Shown piece by piece: positions 30,742 to 62,403 of a stretch of 64,000 nt of DNA. The translations under genes and the position numbers were made by a program. Below the pieces are notes generated by a model. It saw only the letters and a list, made by a program, of their open reading frames with translations. It did not search any database and had not been told where the DNA came from. Position 1 is the first letter of the stretch. Every line of letters begins with the position of its first letter. Location: assembly GCA_012032285.1 (NCBI GenBank), contig JAAURJ010000002.1, positions 1-64,000 of the forward strand, written 5' to 3'. This DNA comes from Sphingomonadales bacterium. GTDB lineage: Bacteria; Pseudomonadota; Alphaproteobacteria; Sphingomonadales; Sphingomonadaceae.

Positions 30742-30757
30742 TTAGGGTCAGGACCTA
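30742..30757 (+). repeat. Solo copy of the terminal repeat of the 62023-62291 element
   Basis: TTAGGGTCAGGACCTA, 16-bp exact match. Confidence 0.75.
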
Positions 30758-30982
30758 CCAAGCAGAGCGTCATGGCATTGAACCTGTCTTTAATGGATAA
30801 GGGTTGATTTTGTAGTTTCACTCGTCTAAGCGGCGACGCATTCGGGCCATTTGGTCCTTTATATATGTGATAGGATATTATCTTGTTCACGCTGGTCGGC
30901 GAGGTTTCGCCCACCGGCGTTTTGTTCGTTTATTGCCATTGGGCCGTGATTGATTTGGCCGTAGTTAAATTGAGGAAATGCG

Positions 30983-59269: not shown

Positions 59270-62010
59270 ATGCTCGGCAAAATGGCCAAGTCGCTCTTCG
59301 GTTCGTCTAACGACCGTTATGTCAAATCGGTGATGAAAATCGTCTCCAAGATCAACGCTTTCGAACCGCAGATTGAAGCGCTCAGTGATGATCAGCTAAA
59401 GGCGCAAACCGGCCTTTTCCGCGACCGTTTGGCTGCGGGCGAAACGTTGGACAATATATTGGCCGAAGCCTTTGCCACAGTGCGGGAGGTATCGCGCCGG
59501 GTGATGGGGATGCGGCATTTTGATGTGCAGATGGTCGGCGGTATCGTCCTCCATCGCGGTGAAATTGCCGAAATGCGAACCGGCGAAGGTAAGACTTTGG
59601 TGGCAACGCTTGCCTGTTATCTAAATGCTTTGGAGGGCAAGGGCGTCCACGTTGTTACGGTGAACGACTATCTCGCTCGCCGTGATGCCGAATGGATGAG
59701 CAAGATATACGGCTTTTTGGGGCTAACCACAGGAGTTATTGTTCCTAATTTGACCGAATTTGAACGGCGCGAGGCTTATGCCTGCGACATTACCTATGCG
59801 ACCAATAACGAGCTGGGCTTTGATTATCTGCGCGATAACATGAAATATGAACGCGCAAAGATGGTGCAGCGCCCGTTCAACTTTGCAATTGTCGATGAGG
59901 TCGATTCAATCCTGATTGACGAAGCGCGGACGCCATTGATTATTTCTGGCCCGACCGATGATAAAACCGATCTGTATATCGCCGTCAACCAAATCGTCCT
60001 GCAATTAACCGAAGAGGATTATGAAAAGGATGAAAAGGCACGCAACGTTATCTTAACCGAAGATGGCACTGAAAAGGCGGAGCGTTTGTTGGAAAATGCC
60101 GGGTTGATCCAAGGGTCAAACCTCTATGATTATGAAAATACGCTTGTCGTGCACCATCTGGATCAGGCTCTAAAGGCGCAGGTGATGTTTAAGCGCGATA
60201 CCGACTATATCATCAAGGATGGCGAAGTTATCATCATTGACGAATTTACCGGGCGAATGATGGACGGCCGCCGCTGGTCAAACGGCCTGCATCAGGCGGT
60301 GGAGGCCAAAGAAGGCGTGGATATCAAGAAGGAAAACCAAACGCTGGCCACCATCACATTCCAAAATTATTTCCGTATGTATCCCAAAATTGGCGGCATG
60401 ACCGGAACGGCCGCAACCGAAGCGGGCGAATTTCATGAAATCTATAAGCTGAATGTTGTCGAAATCCCGACAAATTTACCGGTTCAACGGATTGATGAGG
60501 ATGACCAATTCTATAAAAACACTCAAGATAAATTTCTCGCCATTGCAAAGGCTATCCGAGAAGCCAATGTGCGCGGACAGCCTGTTTTGGTCGGCACGGT
60601 GTCGATTGAAAAATCGGAAATGTTGTCTGAATTTTTGACCAAAGATGGGGTCGAACACAGTATTTTGAACGCGCGAATGCACGAAAAAGAGGCGCATATC
60701 GTGGCGCAGGCAGGGCGGCTTGGCGCAGTAACAATTGCGACCAATATGGCTGGACGCGGCACCGATATTCAGCTGGGCGGCAATTTGGAGTTCCGGATTG
60801 ATGAAGAGCTGGGCGAAATAGAAGAAGGCCCAGCCCGTGACGAAGCCATTGCAAGGTTGAAGGAAGAGGTCGCAGACGAGCGGGCCAAGGTGCTGGAATC
60901 AGGTGGGCTTTTTGTTCTGGCTACTGAACGCCATGAAAGCCGCCGTATCGACAATCAGCTGCGCGGTCGTTCGGGCCGACAAGGTGATCCCGGCCTATCG
61001 CGTTTCTACCTATGCCTAGAGGATGATCTGCTGCGTATATTCGGTTCAGAATCGCTTTTTGCCAAGATGATGAACAGTTCATTGGAAGACGGCGAAGCGA
61101 TTGGCGGCAAAATGCTTTCCAAAGCGATCGAAACCGCACAGCGCAAGGTGGAGGCGCGCAACTATGACGTGCGTAAACAGCTGGTTGAATATGATGATGT
61201 TATGAATGACCAACGCAAGGTCATCTATGCCCAACGTGACGAGATTATGGACGCCGATGCGGTTGATGATGTGGTTGAAGATATGCGGAACGACACCGTC
61301 AATTCCATCATTGCCGACCATTGCCCAGCGGGCACCTATCCCGAACAATGGGATATAGACGGCCTCAAAACCCAACTCAAAGCGGTTTTGACGCTGGAAC
61401 CCGATATCGACGCATGGCTGCAGGAAGAAACAATCGAAGCGGAAATAATCGAAGAGCGCATTGCCGAACAGACAGAGGCCCTGTTCAAACAGAAAAGCGT
61501 CGAACTGGATCCAGAGACTTGGAAATCAGTTGAAAAAAGTATATTACTTCAAATGCTTGATCATCATTGGAAGGAGCATTTATCAACATTGGATGCGCTG
61601 CGTCAGGTTATTTATTTACGCGCTTATGCGCAAAAAACGCCAATCAATGAATATAAGCAGGAATCTTTTGGCCTGTTCGAAAAAATGCTGGCTGCTATCC
61701 GCGAAGATGTTACCAAAACTATCGCGACAAATGAATTCCGCACCGAAGAACAGATTGATGTGCCCGAACTGCCGGAGCTTCCCGACTTTTTGACCACGCA
61801 TATTGATCCTTTCACTGGTGAGGATGACAGCAATGACATTGATGCCGGTGATTTGGGCCTTGTCACCACAACCTTGCCGCTGCGCAAATGGGGGCGCCCA
61901 GCCCGCATAGCGATGATCCTTATGCTGGCAATACCGATTTGAAGCGTAATGATCCTTGTCTTTGCGGATCGGGGCGGAAATATAAACATTGCCATGGATC
62001 GTACAGCTAA
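59270..62010 (+). CDS. secA: Preprotein translocase subunit SecA, frameshifted near the C-terminus
   Basis: Long ORF with '[19 protein letters not shown]', '[17 protein letters not shown]'; zinc motif [20 protein letters not shown] is in another frame, ending at 62010; break ~61875-61910. Confidence 0.97.
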
Positions 62011-62022
62011 GCATTTTTTATA

Positions 62023-62291
62023 TTAGGGTCAGGACCTATTAAATACACCTTCGAGGCGACAAAATGGCAAAGATACCGGAGCGAAATGCAGACGGCAGGC
62101 AGTTTTTCTGCCTGCAAGGGGATTTCGCTTTGAGATCGAAGCCATTTTGGCGTCCTTCGGATTTGACCCATTTTGTCCATTGCTGCGTTGGCAAGCTTGG
62201 ACTTAGAACCACTAAGCCCAGCGCTTGCCGCCTTGCACTGAACAAAATGGCCTCAAACCTCGAATGGGCATTTAATAGGTCCTGACCCTAA
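62023..62291. mobile_element. 269-bp MITE-like structured element, ORF-free
   Basis: Perfect 22-bp terminal inverted repeats TTAGGGTCAGGACCTATTAAAT (62023-62044 / 62270-62291) plus two internal nested hairpins. Confidence 0.75.
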
Positions 62292-62296
62292 GTTTG

Positions 62297-62403
62297 TCAT
62301 TCCCGCGAATGCGAAAAACCAGCTCCTGAAAGTGAAATTTGACCCGTCATTTCCTGCGCAAATATATAGGCCCGGCTCTGAATTCCCGTATGCGCGGGAA
62401 TGA
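62297..62403. repeat. Short element bounded by TCATTCCCGCG inverted repeats
   Basis: TCATTCCCGCG (62297-62307) / CGCGGGAATGA (62393-62403). Confidence 0.55.

Follow-up and report, generated by a model that had tools for sequence, protein, structure and literature searches.

A mobile inverted-repeat element of Sphingomonadaceae with exchangeable ends and a structurally conserved core, inserted downstream of secA

We report that a 263-bp inverted-repeat element located after secA in a draft genome of a Sphingomonadales bacterium (the analysed stretch of 64,000 nucleotides is referred to as the window) is a mobile miniature inverted-repeat transposable element (MITE), which duplicates a TA dinucleotide when it inserts. 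Overall, we consider with modest confidence that the data are best explained by a MITE mobilised by IS5-type transposases, having exchangeable ends and a core kept as RNA at mRNA 3' ends. The family appears to be new as far as we could search: Rfam 15, queried at a permissive threshold with the window copy and six distant copies, gave nothing credible up to E = 1, and the literature searches, with most subscription journals outside their reach, returned no description of the element family.

The inverted-repeat stretch at 62023-62291 was as given in the initial annotation, i.e. 269 bp with perfect 22-bp terminal inverted repeats and a multi-stem fold. In the window copy the terminal inverted repeat lengthens to 34 nt at 91% identity. 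Folded as single-stranded DNA, a 309-nt stretch formed a closed multi-branch structure of -85.6 kcal/mol, compared to -39.0 +/- 4.1 kcal/mol for shuffled versions (z = -11.4; 0 of 100 shuffles equalled the real fold). The element proper, which begins with GGG, covers 62026-62288 and lies between two TA dinucleotides (Table 1), where no clear target-site duplication had been seen at first. It carries no transposase, and its length is below the 600 bp used as the upper size for MITEs; in the wider scan, copies in which both ends are clear were nearly all 262-266 bp, with a few of 253-288 bp. Its core (62057-62257) consists of two large arms and a 9-nt mini-hairpin.

Table 1. Features of the element in the window.
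Feature	Position	Strand	Basis or remark
Left copy of the TA target duplication (site TTAA)	62024..62025	.	Sequence; TA duplication shown via empty sites at other loci
Left terminal inverted repeat, 31 nt, GGGTCAGGACCTATTAAATACACCTTCGAGG	62026..62056	+	28/31 paired in the window copy
Arm A, ~96-nt hairpin; constrained strand + by wobble pattern	62057..62152	+	
Mini-hairpin TCCTTCGGA between the arms	62153..62161	.	Alignment of relatives
Arm B, ~96-nt hairpin; constrained strand - by wobble; probable inverted paralogue of arm A	62162..62257	-	
Right terminal inverted repeat, 31 nt, GGGTCAGGACCTATTAAATGCCCATTCGAGG as read on the - strand	62258..62288	-	
Right copy of the TA target duplication	62289..62290	.	

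Empty sites, which had been proposed as a check, were found and carried the information on target duplication. Specifically, the convergent genes argJ and trxA share the stop site TTAA, which is uninterrupted in seven inspected relatives (L184, L186, L187, L188, L197, L202 and L203) and reads TTA[element]TAA in genome G044; hence, TA was duplicated on insertion. At a second site (L148), CTAA is uninterrupted in three relatives, and among 62 copies with definable borders YTAR was the insertion site in 53. The argJ/trxA site also has 12-bp palindromic scars, TA-GGGGCCTGACCC-TA and variants thereof (L185, L189-L191), looking like recurrent remnants or deletion footprints of element copies. In six copies (L276, L280, L284, L286, L305 and L326) the left border TA is altered, with CAG, AAG or GAG before GGTC and otherwise intact ends, possibly reflecting loss of a TAG stop.

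With respect to the mobiliser, the genus holds IS elements of 837-849 bp that have TA on both sides and encode an IS5-family transposase in split form (NF033580; PF13340 together with PF01609/PF13586). Their tips are GGGTCAGGACTC/GGGTCAGGACCC (L249), GGCCGTGTACTCATAA (L214), GGGTCCGGACCC (L234) and GGCTCAGGATTCATTAA (L252), and the matching MITE end classes are GGGTCAGGACC, GGCCGTGAACTCATAA, GGGTCCRGAC and GGNCACAGACCC; the tips of the L249 IS read GGGTCAGG and those of the L214 IS GGCCGTG. Members of the IS427 group, which occurs in Alphaproteobacteria and was described in Paracoccus, measure 832-865 bp, have two overlapping ORFs and mostly generate 2-bp duplications (PMC3281130); the ~840-bp IS fit this group in size, split reading frame and 2-bp duplication, the group name being given by comparison with that report. 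The multicopy distribution, the empty sites with TA duplication and the IS5-family elements with matching ends bear out the earlier suggestion of a MITE mobilised in trans, and mobility by IS5-type transposases is well supported by these sequence comparisons. The search for a parent transposase was likewise successful for the genus, while the source genome gave a partial match only: this draft yielded no IS whose ends match closely, and one related IS on contig C39 has the tips GGGTCAGGATTCATTAA. Since these tips match only partly, the exact transposase partner of the window copy can only be inferred. At L221 (G026:C1) an IS5-family element with tips GGCCACAGACTCATTA, likewise a tip class present on the MITEs, abuts a MITE copy, the two having one TA in common; an IS-plus-MITE composite was considered for this genome and rejected in favour of this simple juxtaposition.

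On a tree of 185 cores the end class changes 29 times, the minimum possible being three, and for the GGCCGTG end class (class B) at least five changes are forced by well supported branches; the tree was computed using FastTree and has many weak branches. From this tree, the ends appear to have been repeatedly exchanged among IS5-type tip classes while the core was kept, and recombination between copies could be an alternative source of the pattern.

The source genome, a 96-contig draft, has approximately 16 loci of the element, of which three are full length (on C12, C5 and C19); most of the others are cut short because contigs end inside the repeat. The element is present in 31 of the 45 genus genomes, and the number of matches in a single genome reaches the tens; this answered the copy-number question raised at the outset. 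Copies were named in Sphingorhabdus, Sphingopyxis, Novosphingobium, Sphingobium, Croceibacterium, Altericroceibacterium, Altererythrobacter, Tsuneonella and Sphingosinithalassobacter. A covariance model of the core (R1) was used for the family and class scans. Of 251 family genomes, 40 gave matches, representing 24 of the 91 genera sampled; the class, which was covered only thinly, added six genomes from five other alphaproteobacterial families (E 3e-14 to 3e-26). Conservation of the core in these five families is weak; the inspected copies outside the family have the same layout, inverted ends and mostly YTAG/CTAR-type borders. Pattern matches in Magnetospirillum and a Devosia MAG disagreed with the core profile and were taken as chance.

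Shorter elements with intact ends and the core partly or wholly missing were also present, at G000:C65:25048-25095 (~48 bp), C42:43665-43733 (~69 bp) and C5:12327-12488 (~162 bp), and a recurrent short form without positions ~61-109 (L157-L159) belongs to the short derivatives seen in several genomes. As these derivatives lack much of the core, mobility does not depend on it. Single ends or other small elements that start with TTAGGGTCAGGACCTA and are without this core were noted at 30742-30762 and G000:C39:29927.

The core was aligned for 54 copies (205 columns). Over its 75 structural pairs, 93.4% of the cells are paired and 53 pairs show double changes; double-changed cells number 428 compared to 119.5 in shuffles, and the covariation score is 0.347 as against 0.054-0.082 when the structure was slid. 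Certain mismatches are conserved, e.g. a RAA/GAA internal loop and an A.G mismatch in arm A. A DNA palindrome in which neither strand is used specifically should show G.T and A.C changes equally often on a given strand. Counting events on a tree, and excluding two near-invariant positions that are C.A/A.C here and G.T on the opposite strand, arm A has 66 changes to G.T and 15 to A.C (p 9e-9), and arm B 33 to A.C and 11 to G.T (p 0.001), with p = 7e-10 in a Fisher comparison of the two arms. The ends, as an internal control, have no strand bias (92 G.T and 78 A.C cells, p = 0.32). The bias is repeated in 19 distant copies, where the G.T/A.C counts are 60/15 for arm A and 11/45 for arm B. The pair set of the wobble test was the union of both strands' folds; when restricted to pairs predicted on both strands the bias has the same direction and is weaker (17/13 for arm A and 10/30 for arm B), and the total folding energies of the two strands do not differ overall. 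Hence, the selection for a DNA or RNA structure proposed in the initial annotation is supported for the core by covariation across copies and by strand-specific wobble, and the opposite expectation, a single-copy element with stems not kept, clearly failed. Covariation beyond chance and strand-specific wobble, as expected of a structured RNA, are both present, and single-stranded DNA would show both too.

Compared directly as nucleotide sequences, arms A and B give a weak signal. A covariance model of arm A matches arm B only on the opposite strand in five of five copies (E 0.004-0.16), and in the source genome the arms occur inside elements only. The opposite wobble bias together with the opposite-strand match suggests that the core probably consists of two related hairpins in inverted orientation, with the constraint in each lying on the strand read inward from the end beside it; paralogy of the arms is likely, not proven.

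The position of the copies relative to genes was counted for non-coding placements only, with genes from simple codon-usage calls. Since the ends begin with G, insertion at TA rebuilds a TAG stop. In the genus, 30 of 52 copies lie exactly on the stop codon of a neighbouring gene as compared to 25 of 96 other non-coding YTAR sites (p 2e-4), and in the wider scan 16 of 27 as compared to 38 of 168 (p 3e-4), i.e. 58-59% of the copies versus 23-26% of the sites. Nine copies are on a stop common to two convergent genes. Among the genus copies, the convergent context is enriched (23/52 vs 18/96) and the divergent depleted (6/52 vs 24/96), while in tandem-gene contexts no bias in element orientation was detected (13 vs 10). 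Part of the stop-codon enrichment may be survivorship.

Based on these comparisons we propose the following. An IS5-family (IS427-group-like) DDE transposase made elsewhere, its particular identity being inferred, would act on the GG... tips and insert the element into TA within YTAR, which duplicates TA. A conserved inverted pair of hairpin domains is carried between the ends; as seen on the core tree, the ends have been swapped repeatedly for those of other IS5-type elements with the core retained, and end-to-end pairing is then probably restored through replicative template switching. As TA+G rebuilds the TAG stop, the protein would be unchanged by the insertion. A neighbouring gene transcribed into the element from either side would first meet the arm that is constrained in the transcribed strand; either orientation would thus give a structured mRNA 3' end, which could shield the message, trim it or end it. 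Probably the core is maintained because it acts as RNA, and a structured RNA at mRNA 3' ends is its most likely function.

The alternative is a single-stranded DNA hairpin bound by a protein, and the strand bias fits this as it fits RNA read in from either side; the data do not choose between the two, and the bias alone is no proof of RNA because single-stranded DNA, too, tolerates G.T better than A.C. Specifically, each arm could be recognised in one strand by a protein acting in transposition or replication or by a host factor, much as the paired REP hairpins are in REPINs, with the inverted layout reflecting the dyad symmetry of a transposition complex. The opposite-strand arm match, the conserved stem mismatches with the opposite wobble bias and the confinement of the arms to elements in the source genome all agree with such a role. 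Insertion and TA duplication are, however, already explained by a DDE transposase at the ends, and copies without much of the core have spread too; we regard it as possible and rather unlikely.

The pairing of the ends has another probable origin. Left and right ends of the same copy pair at 29.3 of 31 positions on average (181 copies) compared to 20.0 for ends taken from different copies; there are 121 different left ends, and 26 of the 31 end columns have compensatory types. Replicative template switching is known to equalise the arms of inverted repeats, to turn spacers around (PMC8604942), and both to generate RNA hairpins and to preserve them (PMC8794818). Because of this, and because loop flips and an inverted arm are visible, the end pairing was not used as evidence of function: among relatives the mini-hairpin loop is present in both orientations (TTC/GAA, TGC/GCA), and in L160 (G006:C1:1034685-1034897) arm A has the opposite orientation to the remainder of the element. 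At L131/L138, an orthologous insertion in two species, the ends differ between the copies and are paired within each. It could be argued that all pairing in the element arose by template switching between inverted repeats and that the core has no function, and the ends covarying without strand bias, the TTC/GAA flips, the inverted arm in L160 and the in-place compensated changes at the common insertion (L131/L138) speak for this. However, a functionless core predicts no arm strand bias and no kept mismatches, and both are seen; nor does it account for a core that can be recognised in different families even as its ends change. Template switching thus probably accounts for the perfect ends and leaves the strand bias and the conserved mismatches unexplained, and the functionless-core account, already weakened, is in our judgement improbable.

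The window element lies 12 nt past the true SecA stop (TAA, 62008-62010), which is the spacing originally noted, and its downstream neighbour is a gene for a TauE/SafE-type permease. The listed secA open frame stops early, at 61942, through an apparent frameshift; in 61880-62010 the C-terminal zinc motif runs on in another frame to the TAA at 62008-62010. An assembly error at GGGGG, in what is an essential gene, is the probable cause of the frameshift; the alternative is a real lesion. No promoter was found inside the element. Although the element sits 12 nt after the SecA stop, a dedicated 3' regulatory or terminator structure of secA, as first suggested, is hardly credible, given that the sequence after secA is without the element in all 29 relatives inspected (the insertion being private to the source genome), that copies lie at many unrelated loci, and that no convincing intrinsic terminator was found inside the element or its core; the multicopy distribution and the private insertion rule out a secA-specific role. 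Right after the MITE, at 62297-62403, there is a second inverted-repeat element (TCATTCCCGCGAATGCG ... CGTATGCGCGGGAATGA), a REP-like dimer resembling the CGTC-type REP dimers of PMC3733652.

Compared to known systems, IS5-family (IS427-group) MITEs are likewise short, multicopy and without transposase, with terminal inverted repeats and a 2-bp duplication. Typical MITEs are degenerate ISs of one transposase, whereas the present family has a core conserved far beyond any one IS, ends that match several IS5-type end classes and an interior that is a constrained structure. ERIC, NEMIS/Correia and RUP-like MITEs are mobile, lie beside genes and, folding as RNA, can make an mRNA more or less stable (PMC3733652); they are similar in mobility and gene-adjacent position, but no sequence relation was seen in Rfam or the literature, and they differ from the present family in its branched core, two strand-specific arms and exchangeable ends. 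The resemblance to REP/BIME/REPIN elements (GTAG or CGTC families), also suggested initially, holds as an analogy for two inverted hairpin units with conserved mismatches and not for the ends, which are DDE-type terminal inverted repeats with TA duplication, unlike those of REP-type elements. REP hairpins are 20-40 nt with an unpaired GTAG or CGTC tag, while the arms here are ~96 nt and the CGTC at the start of arm A lies inside a paired stem. Finally, covariation and conserved internal loops are shared with the structured ncRNA families of Rfam, from which the present family differs in being mobile, multicopy and without an Rfam 15 match.

MITEs are usually treated as decayed insertion sequences with an irrelevant interior. 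In the family described here the interior is conserved and the ends are replaceable, across many genera. Tentatively, we suggest a class-wide mobile family in which the inherited unit would be a two-arm structured RNA (or single-stranded DNA) module, one that may survive by end exchange among IS5-type transposases and persist via orientation-independent structured 3' ends at rebuilt stops. The family represents a natural test of transposase switching by a non-autonomous element, of the way in which identity between inverted ends is maintained, and of the possibility that a mobile element serves as a portable 3'-end module, and a covariance model is now at hand for a structured element that current annotation misses.
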